Shown piece by piece: positions 7,691-31,812 of a stretch of 32,660 bases of DNA. Source of the DNA: a virus; the IMG/VR virus record IMGVR_UViG_3300010389_000068, positions 1-32,660 of that record. The stretch is one strand, 5' to 3'. Below the pieces are notes generated by a model. That model was not told where the DNA came from. It saw only the letters and a list, made by a program, of their open reading frames with translations, and made no database searches. How positions within the stretch are numbered: the first letter of the stretch is position 1; every line of letters starts with the position of its first letter. A program made the translations under genes and the position numbers.

Positions 7691-8074
7691 ATGGACGATT
7701 TTAGTTGGTTTATTGGTATTATTGAAGGAGAGGCATATTTTGGTATAGACAAAAAAAGAAATAGCCCTGAGTTTACAATATCTATGTGTGACGATGATAT
7801 CGTTGAAAAACTTAGTAAGTTTTTAGACGCTCCTATTCGGTCATTTGTTCCCTCTGGTAAAAATGTCTCTGGTGGGTTGTATAAGACTCAGCACAGAATC
7901 GCAGTCCGTGGTCGTAAGGCGTGGATTATTATGCAAAAAGTAGAACCCTATCTTTCTAAACGCAGAAAGGATCAAATATCAAATGTAAGGGAAAACTACA
8001 AACCAAAGACATCTTTTAAAACAGAGGGATATGTTTCTAAAAAGAAACCTATCAATATCCCGCTTTTTGATTAA
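7691..8074 (+). CDS. LAGLIDADG-type homing endonuclease, single motif
   Basis: A 127-aa protein with one LAGLIDADG-like motif near the N-terminus (WFIGIIEGEAYFGI, the acidic residue at E12 or E14). It also has the C-terminal helix typical of the family (KAWIIMQKVEPYLSKRRKDQI). With one motif it would act as a homodimer. It sits between gp33 and gp59, genes adjacent in T4-type order, has its own TATAAATA box and no ribosome site, and is bracketed by a 13-bp direct repeat. This makes it a likely recent insertion. It is unrelated to the HNH nucleases in the window. Whether it still cuts a phage lacking it is inference. Confidence 0.75.
   Translation: MDDFSWFIGIIEGEAYFGIDKKRNSPEFTISMCDDDIVEKLSKFLDAPIRSFVPSGKNVSGGLYKTQHRIAVRGRKAWIIMQKVEPYLSKRRKDQISNVRENYKPKTSFKTEGYVSKKKPINIPLFD
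8056..8068 (+). repeat. 13-bp direct repeat, right copy
   Basis: Exact second copy of TATCCCGCTTTTT (first at 7676-7688), inside the 3' end of the nuclease gene and 19 bases before the gp59 start codon. Confidence 0.8.
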
Positions 8075-12828: not shown

Positions 12829-13431
12829 ATGCCTACTCCTATCGCTAGAATGATGCGTGACGTGAAGACAGCGTTGCTTGCGCCGTCATTAACATCACAA
12901 TATTCTGTGGAAGTTTATGCTCCACCAGGAGGACAGCAACTGCCATTTTTTATTAATGACATTATAAATCTGTCTTGTTCAGAGGCATCACTTCCTGGGT
13001 CAAATCTTATGACTCACGAACTCAAAGATGACTTTGTTGGTACAACAGAGAAGATTGCCTATAGAAAAGCATATGATGACACAGCAAGTTTTACTTTCTA
13101 TGTAAACATTGACCACGATGTTATTTTGTTCTTTGAGAACTGGTTACGATATATTGCTGGAGAACCATTAGTTGGTGATAGTAATACGGACAATCGAGCA
13201 CCAAACTTTGTTCATCGAACTCAGTTTAAAAAGAACTACAAGTCTCAAGTAGTCATTAATAAATTTGAAAAGGATTATGAGAAGGGTGGTTCATATTTAC
13301 AGTATACATTTTTAGATGCATACCCTCTGTCAATTAATTCGATGCCAGTTGCATATAATGCATCTGATCTGCTAAAATGTACAGTAAACTACGCATTTAC
13401 TAGATATATCCTGGATACAGTACCTTACTGA
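12829..13431 (+). CDS. Tail tube-like protein (T4 gp19/gp54 superfamily)
   Basis: A 200-aa protein with the fold signature of contractile-tail tube proteins: an N-terminal beta domain (TSQYSVEVYAPPGGQQLPFF), then the tube-family stretch LSCSEASLPGSNLMTHEL, and TASFTFYVNIDHDVILFFENW with a C-terminal YTFLDAYPLSINSMPV. These are hallmarks of the gp19 family and of baseplate tube initiators that copy the fold. Its position next to baseplate genes, away from any sheath gene, favours a tube initiator (gp54-like) over the main tube subunit, but I cannot separate them by sequence alone. There is no clear ribosome site. It is the first plus-strand gene of the tail block. Confidence 0.7.
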   Translation: MPTPIARMMRDVKTALLAPSLTSQYSVEVYAPPGGQQLPFFINDIINLSCSEASLPGSNLMTHELKDDFVGTTEKIAYRKAYDDTASFTFYVNIDHDVILFFENWLRYIAGEPLVGDSNTDNRAPNFVHRTQFKKNYKSQVVINKFEKDYEKGGSYLQYTFLDAYPLSINSMPVAYNASDLLKCTVNYAFTRYILDTVPY

Positions 13432-13474: not shown

Positions 13475-14194
13475 ATGCCATTACCAAAGATTGCGACACC
13501 AACTTATGAGTTGACTTTACCATCCACAGAACAAACAATCGACTATAGACCATTTTTGGTCAAAGAGGAGAAACTGTTAGTTCTCGCAATGGAAACGGAA
13601 GACACAAAAGATATCACTAAAGCAGTTAAGACTGTTATTAAAAATTGTATTAAGACAAGCGGCATCAAAGTTGAGGACCTCCCAACTTTTGATATTGAAT
13701 ATCTGTTCCTCAATATCCGTGGTAAGTCCGTGGGTGAAGAGGTTGAAGTCAACGTTATCTGTCCAGATGATAACGAGACTCAAGTTCCAGTGTCAATCAA
13801 CCTTGAGGACATTAAGGTCACCAAGGACCCCAAACACACCACAAGAATTAAAGTTGACGACTCCATTATGGTGGAGATGAAGTATCCATCTTTGGATCAA
13901 TTTATCAAGAGCAACTTTGATTTTAAGGGTGGCAATGCAATGGAGCAGTCATTTGAATTGATCGCTGCATGTATTGATAAGATTTACACCGCAGAAGATG
14001 TTTGGGTTGCATCTGATTGTACCAAAAAAGAACTCTTTGACTTCTTGGAGTCAATGAACTCAACTCAATTTAAAGAGATTGAGATGTTCTTTGAGACTAT
14101 GCCTAAACTCAGTCATGAGATTAAGGTTAAGAATCCAAACACTGGAAAGAGTAGTGCTGTTGTACTTGAGGGACTATCTAGTTTTTTCGGGTAG
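13475..14194 (+). CDS. gp26: Baseplate hub assembly protein gp26
   Basis: A 239-aa protein of the T4 base plate protein family (gp26/gp51), which in T4 acts in assembly of the central hub. Matching features are the N-terminal PTYELTLPSTEQTIDYRPFL and the KEEKLLVLAMET stretch. FDIEYLFLNIRGKSVGEEVEV, a beta domain with CPDDNE, and the C-terminal helix ...FFETMPKLSHEI follow. No zinc-ribbon cysteines are seen. The last codons read AGT TTT TTC GGG TAG: a T TTT TTC slippery heptamer three bases ahead of the stop, in phase with the following ORF, so a minority product is probably a longer fusion. Confidence 0.85.
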   Translation: MPLPKIATPTYELTLPSTEQTIDYRPFLVKEEKLLVLAMETEDTKDITKAVKTVIKNCIKTSGIKVEDLPTFDIEYLFLNIRGKSVGEEVEVNVICPDDNETQVPVSINLEDIKVTKDPKHTTRIKVDDSIMVEMKYPSLDQFIKSNFDFKGGNAMEQSFELIAACIDKIYTAEDVWVASDCTKKELFDFLESMNSTQFKEIEMFFETMPKLSHEIKVKNPNTGKSSAVVLEGLSSFFG

Positions 14195-14212
14195 GAATGG
14201 TCCACATGGACC
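14182..14212 (+). promoter_or_regulatory. Probable programmed -1 frameshift site in gp26
   Basis: T TTT TTC (14182-14188) is in the correct phase for a -1 slip. It is followed after 10 bases by a hairpin GGTCC (14199-14203) / GGACC (14208-14212) with loop ACAT. The -1 frame is open through the next ORF. Confidence 0.6.
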
Positions 14213-14382
14213 TAATGAACTACTATGAGTTGAATTTCTCCTTAATGCAGTTCCATAAATATTCTTTGACTGAGATTGAAAACATGATCCCGTGGGAAAG
14301 AGACATCTATGTCACGATGCTCAAGAACCACATTGAAGAAGAAAAACTCAAAATGGAACAACAAAAAGCGTCAACATTCTAA
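14197..14382 (+). CDS. gp26 frameshift extension or small hub chaperone
   Basis: A 61-residue reading frame (MVHMDLMNYYELNFSLMQF...) whose core NYYELNFSLMQFHKYSLTEIE and PWERDIYVTMLKNH looks like the C-terminal component of tail-assembly chaperones that are made by frameshifting in other long-tailed phages. No ribosome site precedes ATG 14197 or the later ATGs (14206, 14215). The frame is exactly -1 to gp26 and joins it at the slippery site, so I think it is mostly expressed as a gp26 fusion of about 300 aa. Its stop overlaps the start of the tape-measure gene (TAATG), the position such chaperones normally occupy. Confidence 0.65.
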   Translation: MVHMDLMNYYELNFSLMQFHKYSLTEIENMIPWERDIYVTMLKNHIEEEKLKMEQQKASTF

Positions 14383-17300
14383 TGGCAAGAGCATATAGGG
14401 GTCGTCCACCAAAAAGAAGAGTAACTGTCAGGAAAGAAAATGTAAATCCTGGCAGTTTTTTTGGTGCCGACAACTATGAGCGTTTACGTCAAGAGGTTGC
14501 AACTCAGGGAACCATTGAGGGAGAGACACTTACTCCTGAGCAAAGAAAAGAAGCATTTAAAGCAAGTAGAGATAAGACATCATTTAATAAGTTTGTTAAT
14601 ACATTTTTAGGTAAAGACCAACCAAAAACTCAAACTGGTGGAGGAGTTTCATCTCCACCTCCAGTATCTCCAACACAGAGGATGTTGCCTGGTTCTGGCA
14701 CATCAGCAATTACTGTTAGAAAACCTGGTTCACAGAAACAGACTTCAAGAGACGTTGCAGACACAACTCAGAGTGTTGCTGATGAAGTAAAGCAAAGAAA
14801 AAAGAGAGGGGTTGGAGCAACCCTGGAGCAAAATGTTTCTGCGATTAGAAAAACTGTAGATAGTATTTTTGAAACACTCGTAAAGCAAAACGAGTTTATC
14901 AAGAAGCAATTTGACCTTGCAAGAAAATTAGAGGAAGATAAAAAGAGAAAGCAAAAAGAAGAAAGATTTGAGGGGGATAAAGGGGATAAAAAAGCAAAGA
15001 AGGCAGTTGACAAGATTGCAAAACCATTCTCAAATATTCTTGATAAGATAATCAACTTCTTTGCCTCAATATTCTTAGGTAAAGCATTAATTAAGTTGAT
15101 TGGTTGGTTTGCTGACCCAGCAAATCAGAGTAAAGTCGAGAGTATCGGTAGATTCCTTAAGGATTGGTGGCCAACACTATTGGGTGCATATCTAATCTTT
15201 GGTAATGGACTAGTTAAATTTGTTGCTGGAATAACTGCAAAGTTATTATTCTTTGCAGGTAGAATGCTGATAACAGTAATACCTGCATTAGGAAGAGCGA
15301 TTGCAAGAAATCCAAAAGCAGCAGCTGCAGCAGCACTCTTTGGTGCGGGTGCCCTTGTTCCTTCAATGTTCCCAGACACAATTAAAGATGCTGCAGATAA
15401 ACAGGCATCTGCTGCAGAAAGAGAAGTTGGAAAAGAACAAGCAGCTACTCAAATTGAAGCACAAAATGAAGATAGAAATATATTCCAGAAAATCAGTGAT
15501 TTTATAACAGGTGCTGATGCTGAGAGAGCAGAGCAAGCACAGAGACTTAGAACTGGTGAAGAGAAAAGATATGGTTTATTTGGGGAGATTCCAGCAAAGA
15601 GAAAGGGTGGTCAAGTAACAACCACCAGTGGCACAGATATCAAGGGTGCTGGTGTTGACACTCAACTGATTGCTGCACGTCCTGGTGAAGTTGTTATTAA
15701 CAAAGCAACAGTTGACGCACTTGGTGCAAAATACTTCTTAGAACTTAACAGAAAGTTTGGTGGACCACAAGCCAACAAACCTAAGATGGCAAAGGGTATC
15801 CAAACTGCTGCATTTGGTGGTATGGTTGTGCCTGCCTTTGCAAATGGTGGTGAGGTTCCAGTTGGCGGTTCCTATATGGGCAACCGTGGAGAAGGACTGA
15901 GAGATGATTTAATTAAGTGGGCAATGGCAAATCCTGCCCTTGCATCTACGCTCAAAGTAGGAGATACTGGATTTAAAGAGGCACAAGCAGCTGCGACAAA
16001 TTATGCTAATGCAGTTTATAAGAGTGGACTTACTGGTCTAGAGCAGGGACTGAATCTTGCTGGAACAACGGCACAAAGTTTTGGATCAAGAGCACAAGAA
16101 ACTGCACAAAACTTAGGTCCACAACTACAGCAAAATGCACTGAATATTGCAAATCAAGGTCAACAGTTCTTAGCAAATACTGTAAATTCTGGTGAGAGTA
16201 TTGCTAGAGATGTTCAGCAAAGATATGAGAGTGGTGATCTAGAACGTCAAATACTTGGTGGACTAAGTGGATTAAAGAATAAGACAACTGGTGTGGTTGG
16301 TAGTGCTTTCGATCCTCTAATCTCTGCTACAGGTAGTAATGCATATCAAGGAATTGCAGAAAAAAATGCCCTTGTTGATGAAAAAGAGATATCTATCGCA
16401 GATAGTATTGTTAATAGCCTTCCAGAAGGATCACCTTTACAAGACATTGCTGATAAGGGATTGATTCCTATCCCATCTGGTGATGCATCAACAATGAGAA
16501 ATTTGACATATGTCAAAGCATTGTTGGGTCCTCTTGGAAAACCATTTAAGATTTTGAGTAATGATGAAGTTGATAGAATGCGTCAACTCACTATTGATAA
16601 GACTTTAGAAAAGAGTGGATTGATTGTTGGTAAAGATGGTGAAGTTCGTATGAACTGGAACCAAGAAGATATTAATAAAGGTGCTAAAGGTGGTGGTGCA
16701 TACACTGATGACCTTGGACCTGGCGGTAAAGCATTTAACTCTATCTTGGGTAGATTTACTGCATCAACTAGAGACGGTGGTAATACTTTATATACTGATG
16801 ACAGATATAACTTTAACCTTTCAACCCAAGAGTATCTACAAAAAGCAAAAGACCAATTACTCAGTGGTGCTTTTGGCGAGGCAGCATATTTTGGTGCAGC
16901 ATCTTTGGGCAAATTTGCAGAAGATATGGGTTGGTTGAATCAGAGAGCACTTGGCAGTAGAATTGCAATTGGACAAGTTGACAGAACTCAGATTGAGGGT
17001 GCTACACCAAAGGTTGCTCAACCTGCTCCAATTAATGTTCCTGCTGCTGTAAAAGAATTTGAAAAGGGTAATTATAATGCTGCAACTAGAGCATTGGGTG
17101 GAGACCCATCTAAATCAGAACCAATACCTCAGATAACAGCACCAACAAAACCAAAGAGGGCGTGGTATGATCCTCGTGGATGGGTTGGTATGCAAGGTGG
17201 TGGTATGGTTGGACCATCTTGGTTGCCTTGGAACTGGGGCAAAGTCGCTGAAAAGGGAAGAGATGAAGCAGCTATAGGCGGAAATGCATTTGGTTATAAT

Positions 17301-17927
17301 GCAAGATATAGAAACGTAACTGATCCTGCCCAAAGAAGAATGCTCGGATTACCTCCACTAGAGTCTCGTCAAGGTGGTGGTATGGTTGGACCATCTTGGT
17401 TGCCTTGGAACTGGGGTAAATTAGCAGACAAACAACGAAAAACTAATAAAGGAATTGGTTATGAAGCAAGATATGGACACGTAACTGATCCCGCTCAGCG
17501 AAGAATGCTCGGATTACCTCCTCTTGAGGGACGTGCTGGCGGAGGTATTACAGAGGGCACTGGTATGGACTTACCAGGAGCAGGTGCAGATAGACAATTG
17601 ATTCGTGTTCAACCTGGAGAGTACATTCTCCCTGTTGATACGGTGATGAGACTTGGTGGACCAAGAGCAATTGACAATGTTGTTGCTAGAACTGACAGCA
17701 ACTCAACTGCTGCAAAACTTGGACTCAACAAACCAAGTTCAATGGCAGTCGGACAACCTGTAATGTCTGACGATTCATCAATGGTATCTACCTTACCTCC
17801 AATTGTTCAGGCATCTGGTGGCGGTGGATACGGCAATGTTGGAAAGGGACCAGAGGTTCCATCTGTATCAGTCTCGTCTAACGCCTCTAGGAGACGCGCT
17901 AAGACAATGTTTGGTCTCGTAGGATAA
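14382..17927 (+). CDS. Tail tape-measure-like protein, 1181 aa
   Basis: A very large structural protein, probably the functional counterpart of T4 gp29, the tape measure of the tail. The N-terminal 200 residues are basic and low in complexity, ending in a coiled coil (about 140-200). Hydrophobic segments follow around 217-245 and 262-320 (WWPTLLGAYLIFGNG and an alanine run). Two tape-measure-type motifs occur near residues 420 (GVDTQLIAARPGEVVINK) and 1065 (GADRQLIRVQPGEYILPV), of the LSPGE-FVI kind common in tape-measure C-termini. A tandem repeat of 59 and 55 residues starts at 938. It directly follows the gp26/frameshift ORF and is paralogous at its N-terminal coiled coil and hydrophobic region to the next gene. 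Confidence 0.75.
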   Translation: MARAYRGRPPKRRVTVRKENVNPGSFFGADNYERLRQEVATQGTIEGETLTPEQRKEAFKASRDKTSFNKFVNTFLGKDQPKTQTGGGVSSPPPVSPTQRMLPGSGTSAITVRKPGSQKQTSRDVADTTQSVADEVKQRKKRGVGATLEQNVSAIRKTVDSIFETLVKQNEFIKKQFDLARKLEEDKKRKQKEERFEGDKGDKKAKKAVDKIAKPFSNILDKIINFFASIFLGKALIKLIGWFADPANQSKVESIGRFLKDWWPTLLGAYLIFGNGLVKFVAGITAKLLFFAGRMLITVIPALGRAIARNPKAAAAAALFGAGALVPSMFPDTIKDAADKQASAAEREVGKEQAATQIEAQNEDRNIFQKISDFITGADAERAEQAQRLRTGEEKRYGLFGEIPAKRKGGQVTTTSGTDIKGAGVDTQLIAARPGEVVINKATVDALGAKYFLELNRKFGGPQANKPKMAKGIQTAAFGGMVVPAFANGGEVPVGGSYMGNRGEGLRDDLIKWAMANPALASTLKVGDTGFKEAQAAATNYANAVYKSGLTGLEQGLNLAGTTAQSFGSRAQETAQNLGPQLQQNALNIANQGQQFLANTVNSGESIARDVQQRYESGDLERQILGGLSGLKNKTTGVVGSAFDPLISATGSNAYQGIAEKNALVDEKEISIADSIVNSLPEGSPLQDIADKGLIPIPSGDASTMRNLTYVKALLGPLGKPFKILSNDEVDRMRQLTIDKTLEKSGLIVGKDGEVRMNWNQEDINKGAKGGGAYTDDLGPGGKAFNSILGRFTASTRDGGNTLYTDDRYNFNLSTQEYLQKAKDQLLSGAFGEAAYFGAASLGKFAEDMGWLNQRALGSRIAIGQVDRTQIEGATPKVAQPAPINVPAAVKEFEKGNYNAATRALGGDPSKSEPIPQITAPTKPKRAWYDPRGWVGMQGGGMVGPSWLPWNWGKVAEKGRDEAAIGGNAFGYNARYRNVTDPAQRRMLGLPPLESRQGGGMVGPSWLPWNWGKLADKQRKTNKGIGYEARYGHVTDPAQRRMLGLPPLEGRAGGGITEGTGMDLPGAGADRQLIRVQPGEYILPVDTVMRLGGPRAIDNVVARTDSNSTAAKLGLNKPSSMAVGQPVMSDDSSMVSTLPPIVQASGGGGYGNVGKGPEVPSVSVSSNASRRRAKTMFGLVG
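17193..17534 (+). repeat. Tandem 177/165-nt repeat in the tape-measure gene
   Basis: Copies at 17193-17369 and 17370-17534 encode QGGGMVGPSWLPWNWGK... to LGLPPLE-x-R. The first 47 bases of the two copies are identical, which suggests a recent duplication; the middle differs by a four-codon indel. Confidence 0.9.
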
Positions 17928-17940
17928 GGAGGTATAGACG

Positions 17941-20900
17941 ATGGCATTACCAGCATTACTCGGCGGTGCAGGCAGAGCACTCGCAACTACCTCTAGAGTA
18001 GCAAAAGCAGCAAATATTGGCACCAAGTTTCTGGGTAAAGATACCAAGAAGCAGAAACCAGGAATGGGGACTGAGAGGGAGTCATCATCACTAACGATTA
18101 GACCATCAACATCGATGGTTCCTGCTAAATTCTCTACTACATTTGGATCATTTTCATCAACGCCAAAGACATCTACGAGTGGCGGAGACTCTCTAGAGGA
18201 GAATGTTGCATACATTCGTAAGAAGACTGTAGAGATTGATAAACTCTTAAAAGAATCCTTTAAACTTAGAAAGAAAGAGGCAAAGGATGCACAAAAGATG
18301 CGTTCTGCCTTAGCAAGAAAAGAGAAGGAGGGTAGATTTGAGTCTGGCGCAAAAGGTGTTGCTGCCAAAGTTGCTAAGAAGGCAGGCAAACCTTTTAGTA
18401 GCATTTTTGATGCGATTAAAAATTATATTACTTCAATTCTTGTTGGATTTATTGCAATCAAACTCTTGCCACTCTTGCCTAAGATGCTTGAGTTACTCAA
18501 GGTGGTTGGTCCTGCAATGGACTTCATCTTGGGCATTGCAGGTAAATTATTAGATGGTCTTGCAACCTTTATTGATTGGGGTTACAAAGCATATGATGCA
18601 ACTAGAGGATTTATAAAGGGCGTTGGTGGAGAGGGAGCCGCAAAAGCATTTGATAAGTTCTCCTCTGCGATGAACACTATGATAAACCTCGCCTTGATAT
18701 TGGCGATGGCAAATGCTGTAGGTGGTGGATTTGGTGGCGGAAGAGGTGGAAGAGGTGGAAGAAGAGGAGGATCTACCCGTCCGACTACAAGACCTGGAGT
18801 TGGTGGTAGACCAAAGGTCACAACAACTGGTGGTAGGGGTGTTAATAGACCCGATTTTAGAAATCCATTCAGACAAAGACCAAACGTTACTGGTTCTGGC
18901 AGTGGTCCATTTAGTGGGTTTAGAAATCCATTCGGACAAAGACCAAACGTTACTGGTTCTGGTAGTGGTCCATTTAGTGGATTCAGAAATCCATTCAGAC
19001 AAGGACCAAAGATTACTGGTTCGGGAACTGGTGGATTCAGATTTACAAATCCATTTAAAGGTGCTAAGTTTCCTCAACTTCCAAAAGGTTCGGGCACTGG
19101 AATCTTTTCAAAAATAAATCCAAAATCAATTGCATCTGGTGCAAAAGGTTTTGGTATTGGACTTGCTATAGAATCTATTGCACAATTTGGACTTGATTGG
19201 ACTTTCGATAGACTTTTTGGAACAAGACAAGAGCAAAATGAGAAATTTTTAGAAAGACAAGCACAAAGAAGTTCATCTGAAAAACAAGAAGTAATTGACA
19301 AATTACTAAAATTGTATAAAAAAGAAAAAGAATATCAAAATAGTCCTCTTGGAAAACTTGATAAAATTATTGCCTTAGGTGGAGATACCACTAGTGACGT
19401 GCAGCTGCGAATTATTACTGATAGATTAAATGCACTTGGTATTACACCACCTGCTATGCAGACTGGTGGAAAAGTTGGTGATGACGATAAAGATCAAAAG
19501 AGAACCTTAAATCAATCACAAATACTTCCAGTACTTCAAACTCCAGACCTTGGCATTTCGGATATTGGAAAAAATATTGGTGGACCCAAGGCAGTAGATA
19601 GACTCTACAAGCAGGAAGGTGTACAAAATCTGATTAGACTTTATAATGAAGTTAAAGATGTACCTGTTTATGGTGAATCAATGGCAACTGCTATTGGTAT
19701 GGCATTAGGAAATACGCCATCATCTAGAACATATCTCTCTATGGGTGCATCTCTGATTAACTTTAGTAATTTGCAAACAGCAGAGAATATTGCAAGTTCT
19801 TCAGCAAAAATTAGTCAAACAGCACAAAAGTTTGAGGATGGTGGTCAGGTTTTTGCATCTAAAGTATCACTAAACGATAGTATTCAAGATACAACAAATG
19901 TTGCAAATTACCTGAGAACTCAAATATCATCAATCAAAGTCAAACCTGAAGAAAAAACACCTGAGGGAATTGCAAGAATACTGGAGATGCTTGGCATTAA
20001 GACAGGGGATTATGAAATGCAGCAAGGTGGAGAATCTCCAAGTTCATCATCCTCAAGTTCACCATCCTCAAGTTCACCAACCATAAGTTCTCCATCTACA
20101 GGTAATAATTCTGGTTTAACTCCACAGCAAAGAGCATTTTTAGAAACTATTTCATATGCAGAAGGGACTAAACAAAGAGGTTATAATACCTGGTTTGGCA
20201 ACCAACTCTTTCCAAAAGATCAACCAGATTTGAGTAAATACACCATTAATCAGATTGTAGAATTACAGAAAAGATTCAATAGAGAAGGTCGTGGTAGATT
20301 TGCTGGTGGTACATCTGCTGCTGTTGGTAAATATCAGATGACTTATCCAGAAACTTTTGCTGCAGCTGCTGGTCTTGATCCTGCGGTAGATAAATTCACC
20401 CCAGCAAATCAGGATAAGATGGCATTATATGGTTATGTGATGAAACAAGGGGGAGTAACACAAGCAGAAATCAATGCTCCTGAGATGTCAGATCAGACTA
20501 TTGACAAGTTAGCACCCGTATTTGCATCGTTCCCAAACTTATTTGGTCCTGGTCAAGGTGGTAAAGCTCCAGGTGATGGAGTAAGTTATTATCCAAGTCA
20601 AGGAGCAAAATTTAAGGCAGACATAAAAGCACAATTCAAAAAAGAAAGAGGTATTGCGATCGAGGCTGCTAAATCTACTCCCGTTGCAAAACCTCAACCA
20701 AAATCTCAGGGTGGTGGATTACTTGATCCAGTATTGAATATGCTTGGTATGGGTTCACAGCAGCAAGGTCAAGGTGAACCAAAGGGTCTTATTGGATCTG
20801 TTGTCCAATGGTTGCACGGCAATCCAAATAGAAAGGGATATGATGCTGGTCACGCTGGAATGTCTAATGCACATGACCACTTTAGTTTTACTAGTAGAAC

Positions 20901-21351
20901 TGCTGCTGTTCGTGCATTTAAGGCATTAAAGAAGGCGGGATATGCACCATATGAGTTTGAAGGATTTACCAGTGTTGGTAAGCACTCACCAAGAGGTGGT
21001 CACTTTGGTCCTGTAGGTCAACCACCAACTTATGATGATAAAACTGATGGTGTTGCATTTGATATTCCTTGGTCATCTTATGGTTCTGGACCTATTGGTC
21101 AAAGAGACTATGATAAGTCATATAGGGCAGCACAAATTGTAGGTGCTGCTCAAGGTGGTGGTCCTGTTCCTGGAGCATTTAGAGAACTTCAGGAAACTAT
21201 GGGTTATGATAAATCCAAAACAAGAGTTCTCATCCAACCAATGATTGTTGAGAAGGAAGTGCCTATGCCAATGCCAGCTGGCGGCGGTGGTGGAATAATG
21301 GTTATGGGTGGTGAGGTAAATAATACTACAGATAGTCTAGCTGCTGGATAG
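17941..21351 (+). CDS. Large tail protein with lambda-R-like muralytic domain, 1136 aa
   Basis: A second giant tail protein. Residues about 80-210 repeat the layout of the preceding tape-measure gene (coiled coil LEENVAYIRKKTVEIDKLL, then hydrophobic segments). A Gly/Arg-rich linker has three 21-residue repeats (306-365). Residues about 727-905 resemble the phage lambda R lytic transglycosylase: FLETISYAEGT with candidate catalytic E741, YNTWFGNQLF, and GKYQMTYPETF. Residues about 965-1045 hold a His/Asp cluster (H971, H978, D979, H980, D1041 in VAFDIP) that may be a metallopeptidase or D,D-peptidase-like domain, less certain. It has a perfect ribosome site (AAGGAGGT, 7 bases before ATG). It likely drills the host wall during DNA injection. 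Confidence 0.75.
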   Translation: MALPALLGGAGRALATTSRVAKAANIGTKFLGKDTKKQKPGMGTERESSSLTIRPSTSMVPAKFSTTFGSFSSTPKTSTSGGDSLEENVAYIRKKTVEIDKLLKESFKLRKKEAKDAQKMRSALARKEKEGRFESGAKGVAAKVAKKAGKPFSSIFDAIKNYITSILVGFIAIKLLPLLPKMLELLKVVGPAMDFILGIAGKLLDGLATFIDWGYKAYDATRGFIKGVGGEGAAKAFDKFSSAMNTMINLALILAMANAVGGGFGGGRGGRGGRRGGSTRPTTRPGVGGRPKVTTTGGRGVNRPDFRNPFRQRPNVTGSGSGPFSGFRNPFGQRPNVTGSGSGPFSGFRNPFRQGPKITGSGTGGFRFTNPFKGAKFPQLPKGSGTGIFSKINPKSIASGAKGFGIGLAIESIAQFGLDWTFDRLFGTRQEQNEKFLERQAQRSSSEKQEVIDKLLKLYKKEKEYQNSPLGKLDKIIALGGDTTSDVQLRIITDRLNALGITPPAMQTGGKVGDDDKDQKRTLNQSQILPVLQTPDLGISDIGKNIGGPKAVDRLYKQEGVQNLIRLYNEVKDVPVYGESMATAIGMALGNTPSSRTYLSMGASLINFSNLQTAENIASSSAKISQTAQKFEDGGQVFASKVSLNDSIQDTTNVANYLRTQISSIKVKPEEKTPEGIARILEMLGIKTGDYEMQQGGESPSSSSSSSPSSSSPTISSPSTGNNSGLTPQQRAFLETISYAEGTKQRGYNTWFGNQLFPKDQPDLSKYTINQIVELQKRFNREGRGRFAGGTSAAVGKYQMTYPETFAAAAGLDPAVDKFTPANQDKMALYGYVMKQGGVTQAEINAPEMSDQTIDKLAPVFASFPNLFGPGQGGKAPGDGVSYYPSQGAKFKADIKAQFKKERGIAIEAAKSTPVAKPQPKSQGGGLLDPVLNMLGMGSQQQGQGEPKGLIGSVVQWLHGNPNRKGYDAGHAGMSNAHDHFSFTSRTAAVRAFKALKKAGYAPYEFEGFTSVGKHSPRGGHFGPVGQPPTYDDKTDGVAFDIPWSSYGSGPIGQRDYDKSYRAAQIVGAAQGGGPVPGAFRELQETMGYDKSKTRVLIQPMIVEKEVPMPMPAGGGGGIMVMGGEVNNTTDSLAAG
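18856..19035 (+). repeat. Three tandem 63-nt (21-aa) repeats
   Basis: Units at 18856-18918, 18919-18981 and a shortened one at 18982-19035 encode FRNPF-x-Q-x-PN/K-V/I-TGSGSGPFSG. The first two are nearly identical in DNA. They form a basic Gly/Ser linker ahead of the enzymatic part. Confidence 0.9.
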
Positions 21352-30598: not shown

Positions 30599-30679
30599 GC
30601 TCCAGTGGCGGAACGGTATACGCAACAGTTTTAGGCACTGTCGTCGCAAGACTTGGAAGTTCAAATCTTCTCTGGAGCA
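30599..30679 (+). tRNA. trnL-UAG: tRNA-Leu (anticodon UAG)
   Basis: Class II tRNA. Acceptor GCTCCAG (30599-30605) pairs with CTGGAGC (30672-30678). The anticodon stem is ACAGT/ACTGT with loop TTTAGGC, giving UAG. The variable arm has a GTC/GAC stem and the T arm is GGAAG-TTCAAAT-CTTCT. CCA is not encoded. It reads CUA and probably other CUN leucine codons. Confidence 0.93.
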
Positions 30680-30683
30680 CCTT

Positions 30684-30765
30684 GCGAGTGTGATGAAATT
30701 GGTAAACATACAGAACTTAAAATTCTGCGGCAGCAGCCTTGCGGGTTCAAGTCCCGCCACTCGTA
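30684..30765 (+). tRNA. trnL-UAA: tRNA-Leu (anticodon UAA)
   Basis: Class II tRNA 4 bases after the first. Acceptor GCGAGTG (30684-30690) pairs with CACTCGT (30758-30764), with one G-U pair at the end. The anticodon arm is CAGAA-CTTAAAA-TTCTG, giving UAA. The T arm is GCGGG-TTCAAGT-CCCGC. CCA is not encoded. It reads UUA/UUG leucine codons, common in this AT-rich sequence. Confidence 0.95.
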
Positions 30766-30796
30766 TTCCACTAAATAAACCGTAGTGGGAACAACT

Positions 30797-31072
30797 ATGA
30801 AGTATCAAATTGATACCACATATGGGTGGTATGATGCTCCAGAAGGATTAAAGTTAGTCCTGCTATACCTTATACAAGGTACACCTTTTACATTTGATGA
30901 ACTCCCTGCTATTGCTAGAGAGCATCCAGAGATTAGGCAGATAGCAGACGAACACCCATTTTGGACACCAGAAGAACTTTATAGAGCATCTGGATACCTT
31001 ATCAATGAGGAATGCCATCCTCTAGTGTTTGAGTTAGAATTGGCAAATCCAGAATTACTTCCAGTAGATTAG
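30797..31072 (+). CDS. Conserved hypothetical protein, 91 aa
   Basis: An acidic soluble protein (MKYQIDTTYGWYDAPEGLKL...), mostly helical, with FTFDELPAIAREHPEIRQIAD and a C-terminal VFELELANPELLPVD. ATG 30797 is chosen over the in-frame GTG at 30785, which lies in the 3' arm of a small hairpin (CCACTA 30768-30773 / TAGTGG 30783-30788) next to the tRNA end. No motif is recognised. It may be transcribed with the tRNA-Leu pair. Confidence 0.65.
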   Translation: MKYQIDTTYGWYDAPEGLKLVLLYLIQGTPFTFDELPAIAREHPEIRQIADEHPFWTPEELYRASGYLINEECHPLVFELELANPELLPVD

Positions 31073-31080
31073 AGCTGTGT

Positions 31081-31088
31081 TATAAATA
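31081..31088 (+). promoter_or_regulatory. Late promoter TATAAATA upstream of HNH nuclease
   Basis: A perfect late box 23 bases before ATG 31112 and 8 bases after the previous stop. Confidence 0.6.
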
Positions 31089-31111
31089 ATAATAAGCACT
31101 TGATATATGCA

Positions 31112-31708
31112 ATGGGCACATCTAATAGTCATAAAGAGGCAATGGAGGAGTGGGGAAAAAATGAAAGACAAAAAAATATTAAAAAGTATTTAACTTCCCC
31201 AAAGCATTGTAAAGAGTGTGGTAGTCCGATTCCTTACGAAAAAAGAAATACAAATGTTTTTTGTAGTTCAAGTTGCTCTGCATCTTATAGCAATAAAAGA
31301 AGAGCAGCAGCAAAACCGAATTGTATAGTCTGCGGAGTAGAATGCAAATCAAAAAAATCTATATATTGCAGTACAAAGTGTCAGCACACACATAAAAATG
31401 AAGTTAATTTATCTTTATGGAAAGAGACTGGAATATATCCAGGAAAATCCGTAGTTAAAAGATATCTATCAGAAAAGAAGAGTGGATGTTGGAACTGCGG
31501 TATAGTTGATTGGATGAATAAACCAATAGTCCTGGAACTAGAACACATTGATGGTAATGCATATAATAATCAAGAAGACAATCTTTCTCTCCTATGTCCA
31601 AACTGCCATTCTCAAACCCCCACATATAAAGCAAAAAATAAGGGGAATGGTAGGGTAGCAAGAAGAGAGAGGGCAAAACAAGATTATTACAGGACTATTG
31701 ACAAATAA
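31112..31708 (+). CDS. HNH endonuclease with paired zinc fingers
   Basis: A 198-aa HNH-type DNA endonuclease of the freestanding kind common in cyanophages. The first half carries two zinc fingers: CKECGSPI with FCSSSC, and CIVCGVEC with YCSTKC. The second half holds CWNCG, the catalytic LELEHIDGNAYNN (E-H-I-D-G-N) and LLCPNCHSQTPTY. I start at ATG 31112 rather than the in-frame TTG at 31100. It stands between the tRNA-Leu group and tRNA-Thr, with its own late-type box. It is not closely related to the HNH at 1573, which is shorter and lacks the extra fingers. Probably a homing nuclease aimed at the tRNA region. Confidence 0.85.
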   Translation: MGTSNSHKEAMEEWGKNERQKNIKKYLTSPKHCKECGSPIPYEKRNTNVFCSSSCSASYSNKRRAAAKPNCIVCGVECKSKKSIYCSTKCQHTHKNEVNLSLWKETGIYPGKSVVKRYLSEKKSGCWNCGIVDWMNKPIVLELEHIDGNAYNNQEDNLSLLCPNCHSQTPTYKAKNKGNGRVARRERAKQDYYRTIDK

Positions 31709-31725
31709 TTTGTTTATGTTATAAT
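31698..31725 (+). promoter_or_regulatory. Consensus sigma70 promoter of tRNA-Thr
   Basis: A perfect TTGACA (31698-31703) and perfect TATAAT (31720-31725) are separated by 16 bases. The start near 31732 lies 7 bases before the tRNA. An AATAAATA box overlaps the -10 element (31723-31730). Confidence 0.8.
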
Positions 31726-31738
31726 AAATAAATCTACC

Positions 31739-31812
31739 GCCCCCATAGTTGTAGTAGTTAAAACAGCCGCCTTGTAAGCGGCAGTCGCGGGTGCAAATCC
31801 TCGCTGGGGGCT
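31739..31812 (+). tRNA. trnT-UGU: tRNA-Thr (anticodon UGU)
   Basis: Acceptor GCCCCCA (31739-31745) pairs fully with TGGGGGC (31805-31811). The anticodon arm is GCCGC-CTTGTAA-GCGGC, giving UGU. The T arm GCGGG-TGCAAATC-CTCGC is one base longer than normal (8-nt loop, or a bulged T), and the variable region has four bases. CCA is not encoded. Confidence 0.85.

Follow-up and report, generated by a model that had tools for sequence, protein, structure and literature searches.

The gpG/gpGT chaperone pair of phage lambda is reportedly produced by a frameshift described in work by Levin in 1993 and by Xu in 2004 and 2013, and its slippery heptamer is G GGA AAG. In Escherichia coli dnaX the −1 signal consists of a Shine-Dalgarno-like (SD-like) element about 10 nt upstream, an A AAA AAG heptamer and a downstream stem-loop, and the frameshift yields a shorter, not a longer, product. 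The tail assembly chaperone frameshift is treated as classical in the passage of PMC5009743 that cites Xu 2004. According to the passages of PMC10885494 and PMC12846349 on these genes, the tail assembly chaperone genes of T4-like phages were identified by Vladimirov et al. 2022, some of these phages rely on two genes rather than on a frameshift (PMC10885494, citing Vladimirov et al. 2022), and polyT slippery sequences are known in their TAC-N genes (PMC12846349, credited to Vladimirov et al. 2022). In T4 itself, gp26 and gp51 are hub assembly chaperones (PMC3004832). Sullivan et al. 2010 reported that cyanophage gp51 has about 20% of the length of the other (T4) gp51, and that phage Aeh1 is without gp51 (PMC3037559).

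In this study we analyzed a 32,660-base stretch of viral DNA, here called the window, a fragment that carries cyanophage genes and begins with one for a photosynthetic reaction-centre protein. Its gp26 locus is very likely, judging from its sequence, a single gene 26-51 decoded in two ways by a −1 slip, giving a short and a long tail chaperone. The original prediction of this frameshift included the remark that no description of it in T4-like phages was known; that remark did not hold, and, as far as the cited passages on Vladimirov et al. 2022 go, the idea is not new and has already been described in outline. What is added here is a three-part signal, its reach among relatives, and an explanation for both the "short" gp51 of cyanophages and the "missing" gp51 of Aeh1.

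Organization of the locus

All the features described lie on the + strand. The gene of the short form (gp26, TAC-N; 239 aa) occupies positions 13475..14194 and matches Pfam T4_baseplate (PF12322, E=5e-77) and PHROG 150 (E=7.5e-83). Direct reading of 14180-14194 in the gp26 frame gives AGT TTT TTC GGG TAG. The heptamer T TTT TTC (14182..14188) is thus in phase, two codons before the TAG that ends the short form (14192..14194), from which three bases (GGG) separate it. The −1 frame continues as CGG GTA GGA ATG GTC CAC ATG GAC and remains open up to a TAA at 14380-14382, so that 64 aa would follow the slip (14188..14382). A candidate stimulator, the SD-like GAGGG, lies 9 nt 5′ of the heptamer (14168..14172), and a stem-loop, GGUCC-ACAU-GGACC, begins 10 nt past it (14199..14212, with arms at 14199-14203 and 14208-14212). 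The in-phase heptamer, the open frame and the hairpin had all been proposed beforehand and are borne out by this reading.

The tail read in the −1 frame is labelled gp51 elsewhere. The 61-aa ORF contained in it matches PHROG 634, "baseplate hub assembly catalyst" (gp51), with E=6.8e-28, and also positions 240-279 of PHROG 150, the last 40 of that profile. The predicted long form (TAC-NC) has 302 aa, and its expected junction peptide contains LSSFFRVGMVHMDL. There is a single copy of gp26 in the window record, itself a fragment, and the gp51 part is found solely in the −1 frame. The locus is flanked upstream by a tail-tube-family gene (12829..13431; PF23849 Phage_TTP_2, E=3.5e-11; PHROG 45 tail tube, E=1.3e-26) and downstream by an ORF of 1181 aa (14382..17927), the ATG of which overlaps the TAA of the tail (TAATG). 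By position and length, this ORF is probably the tape measure gene; comparisons of T4 gp29 with the nt-1 ORF, of nt-1 with Mosig and of Mosig with the window ORF gave no significant sequence match.

In the proposed mechanism, most ribosomes would stop at the TAG and release gp26. A minority would be held at T TTT TTC by pairing of the AGGG with 16S rRNA upstream and by the hairpin downstream, would slip back one base with re-pairing of the two Phe tRNAs, and would read on to give the fusion with the gp51-type tail. We infer from the sequence that slippage occurs and that its rate would set the ratio of many short to few long forms. The protein presumably acts as a chaperone in this phage: the N-terminal part shared by both forms would coat the tape-measure protein, and recruitment of tube or hub subunits may fall to the tail found only in the rare long form, like lambda gpG/gpGT.

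The locus resembles lambda G/GT in having a short protein and a predicted −1 fusion (rare in lambda), a putative slip near the 3′ end, a small −1 tail, a long ORF, probably of the tape-measure type, directly downstream and an N-domain whose model resembles the HK97 chaperone. It differs from lambda in its T TTT TTC heptamer, in its larger N-terminal part (about 240 aa, T4_baseplate family) and in the additional AGGG and hairpin. With dnaX it shares the upstream SD-like element, a homopolymer heptamer and the downstream stem-loop, although the heptamer is again different and the frameshift product here would be the longer one. In phage Adele (Vandenendeviridae/Andersonviridae), as described in the relevant passages of PMC12846349, a −1 slip likewise takes place at a T-rich site between the chaperone gene and the tape measure, and the downstream ORF had likewise been misannotated as a separate gene; those passages concern other phage families and a GTTTTT motif, and in them neither an AGGG nor a hairpin is mentioned.

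Conservation of the slippery site

A heptamer alone is weak evidence because in-phase X XXY YYZ heptamers are common in the window, where 63 were found in 30 genes, only two of them 30 nt or less from the end of a gene. The site was compared among the 80 nearest IMG/VR relatives, those found with the gp26 of P-SSM4, Mosig, nt-1, phiM19 and Moby, and annotated isolates, which after pooling gave 303 distinct loci. TTTTTTC was kept in 80 of the 80 nearest relatives (67-78% identity), and wherever their contigs reach the tail end, the −1 extension runs for about 57-63 aa past the stop. The Phe-Phe codons at the site were TTT TTC in 81/81 near relatives. Over the whole set, T TTT TT(C/T) with an open −1 frame was present at the C-terminal Phe-Phe of gp26 in 298 of the 303 loci, and in 241 of these 298 the 0-frame stop ends 6 nt past the heptamer. 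Other Phe-Phe pairs of the same genes, used as control, formed T TTT TT(C/T) in only 9/302 cases; TTT is the commoner Phe codon, yet the control pairs rarely make the T6 string. This conservation, which is what the prediction called for, is decisive for the reality of the site and far stronger than one heptamer. An Rfam search at the frameshift site gave no match. In a sliding-window analysis, synonymous conservation was high at the gp26 end (1.37) and reached its maximum at the gene start (1.47), not at the gp26 end, and for this reason the per-codon evidence was used.

The five exceptions to T6 among the 303 loci are three phages without it and the loci L346 and L156. In phiMAM1 the site reads G GTT TTC, and in K448 and phiA8-29 it reads A CTT TTC; these two sequences are those of the Ackermannviridae-type relatives without T6. 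We take the G GTT TTC of these relatives to resemble the T7 gene 10 site. In the more distant relatives L098, L101 and L103, which have no T6, the −1 frame after G GTT TTC or A CTT TTC stays open and its tail looks homologous. L346 has T5 instead of T6 at the junction. In L156 (801-1694) the slippery site has suffered a small deletion that puts gp26 and the gp51 tail in one frame, and the 236-kb contig of L156 carries only that one copy of gp26. The L156 fusion may be natural or made by assembly; if real, that phage would make the long form only.

Given that homopolymer errors happen, and in view of the T5 of L346 and the in-frame fusion of L156, the two frames could be attributed to a sequencing or assembly error in one fused gene. 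The comparative data refute this explanation, to which we give a practically negligible probability: the same junction is found in 298 independent loci and in many isolate genomes, and synonymous sites at the junction are under constraint.

Candidate stimulators and the start of the tail

Among the 227 loci with Glu-Gly before the site, 203 encode it as GAG GGN or GAA GGG, the codon pairs that form AGGG, and these are used in 40/136 of the control Glu-Gly pairs outside the site. The two synonymous positions of AGGG compensate each other (Fisher p 5e-6, a nominal value because related sequences are not independent). In addition, anti-SD (16S) pairing at the AGGG was 1.5 kcal/mol stronger than a synonymous null, an excess not reached in any other tested window.

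With respect to the hairpin, in the clade of the window the 5-bp stem is paired in 86.9% of cells, with changes on both sides in all five pairs, and its covariation score was equalled in 0/500 shuffles and exceeded that of every slid register. The register differs between clades, and a single 5-bp register imposed on all of them was discarded as it fails outside the clade of the window. A clade-free folding test was used for this reason. Compared with sequences in which the −1 frame had been recoded synonymously, downstream folding was stronger (mean z −2.06, 294 loci; control windows, −0.2 to −0.7), and the excess was strongest at the junction. The 81-nt fold of the window's own sequence, with z −1.06, is not exceptional. 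The AGGG and the hairpin would thus be stimulators of slippage, as suggested by their conservation.

The homopolymer run at the frame junction, together with the T5 of L346, could also suggest that the polymerase slips on the T-run and produces mRNAs in both frames. We consider such transcriptional slippage very unlikely, since the length of the run is fixed at T6, followed by C or T, and the conservation of AGGG and hairpin fits ribosomes, not polymerase. Polymerase slippage usually needs runs longer than six T.

Another explanation is that gp51 is a separate small protein, made from the ATG at 14197 or 14206 by coupled translation or re-initiation, with the T-run being incidental. Records do annotate the tail as a CDS of its own, and about half of the relatives (158/294) have their first ATG at tail residue 7 or earlier, a few codons from the gp26 stop. 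In the remaining 136/294 there is no ATG before residue 8, and 110 of the 294 tails have no ATG, GTG or TTG in their first 12 codons, or 90 if the first 17 codons are considered. Nevertheless, conservation of the tail sets in at the first post-slip codon (R in 237/294; H at residue 6 in 277/294), that is, ahead of any start codon. It had been predicted that the small ORF lacks a ribosome site. In the window this is not strictly so, because the second ATG (14206) has an AGGA 9 nt upstream of it (14193-14196); the claim stands in the sense that this AGGA is not conserved, an SD-like 4-mer with suitable spacing being found in 1 of the 162 relatives with an early ATG. No good independent start is conserved across relatives. 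Since 110 of the 294 tails are without an early start codon, an independent start is not general, and a separate gp51 would therefore not be the general product. Besides, a separate gp51 would leave the conservation of heptamer and AGGG unexplained, and we regard it as improbable, if less so than slippage of the polymerase. The production of gp26 in two forms by a −1 frameshift, as originally predicted, is the reading favored by the conserved heptamer and −1 frame and by the lack of a conserved independent start.

Relation to T4 gp26 and gp51 and neighbouring genes

A profile of 31 reconstructed gp26-tail fusions was compared by hhalign with the T4 proteins. Against T4-type gp51 it aligned over 248 columns including the tail (E 4.6e-20), with T4 gp51 aligned in full length; the alignment with T4-type gp26 covered 207 columns and stopped close to the junction (E 1.1e-24). 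T4 gp51 matched PHROG 150 (2.6e-84) with nearly its full length covered, and gp51 and gp26 are paralogous (E 1.6e-12). According to these alignments, T4 gp26 is the counterpart of the short form and T4 gp51 that of the long form, in two genes. Homology of both forms to the T4 gp26/gp51 family was thus found in our locus, whereas the two separate genes of T4 were not: a single gene with a predicted frameshift takes their place.

An AlphaFold2 model was made on the apparently natural fusion L156. Residues 11-80 of the N-domain had a pLDDT of 94-97 (pTM of the whole model, 0.42), and the helical tail was moderately confident, with pLDDT 80-89 in part. When residues 1-86 were compared with the PDB, the best match was the HK97 tail assembly chaperone 2OB9 (Z 7.7, rmsd 4.1, 84 aligned), followed by 3FGX (Z 7.3), YqbN 3KLU (Z 6.4) and 5IR0 (Z 4.7), with unrelated proteins at 3.3 or less; it must be considered that a Z below 8 may reflect a common fold arrangement. 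Foldseek alone gave 2OB9 at E 0.65, below significance, and the fold match is consequently taken as moderate support for a tail assembly chaperone fold of the modelled N-domain. A sequence search of solved structures with gp26 and the tail found no relative. Together, the full-length T4 gp51 match of the fusion and the HK97-like N-domain model support the proposed assignment, and the pair is best read as a tail assembly chaperone of the lambda G/GT type.

Within the T4 superfamily, T4, Acj9 and 60AhydR15PP have two separate genes on opposite strands, while the Straboviridae nt-1, AS-zj, Aeh1, 65 and S13 have a single gene with the heptamer kept. In Aeromonas phage Aeh1 (L349:1789-1956), the gp26 end reads GAT TTT TTC GAC TGA, and the unannotated gap between gp26 and the next gene holds a −1 tail just short of 60 residues; this heptamer and unannotated tail would explain its "missing" gp51. 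It is probable that in most T4-superfamily phages genes 26 and 51 form a single chaperone gene decoded by frameshifting under an AGGG/T6/hairpin signal, with no separate gp51, and that in T4 and its close relatives the frameshift gave way to duplication of the gene into short and long copies. If true, this would explain the cyanophage gp51 of about 20% length as well as the case of Aeh1, and the frameshift would account for a small gene that annotations have long treated as separate, shortened or missing. Frameshift and gene duplication also offer a natural comparison of two routes to short and long chaperone forms.

As regards other genes of the window, the long consecutive ORFs 14382-17927 and 17941-21351 resemble each other over about 160 residues at their N-termini (33% identity, E=3e-10), which would fit the duplication of a tape-measure-like gene. 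The ORFs 7691-8074 and 31100-31708 resemble free-standing homing-endonuclease-type genes; the former had no Pfam match, and the latter had only a treble clef below threshold. Finally, three tRNA genes, Leu(tag), Leu(taa) and Thr(tgt), are located in 30599-31812.
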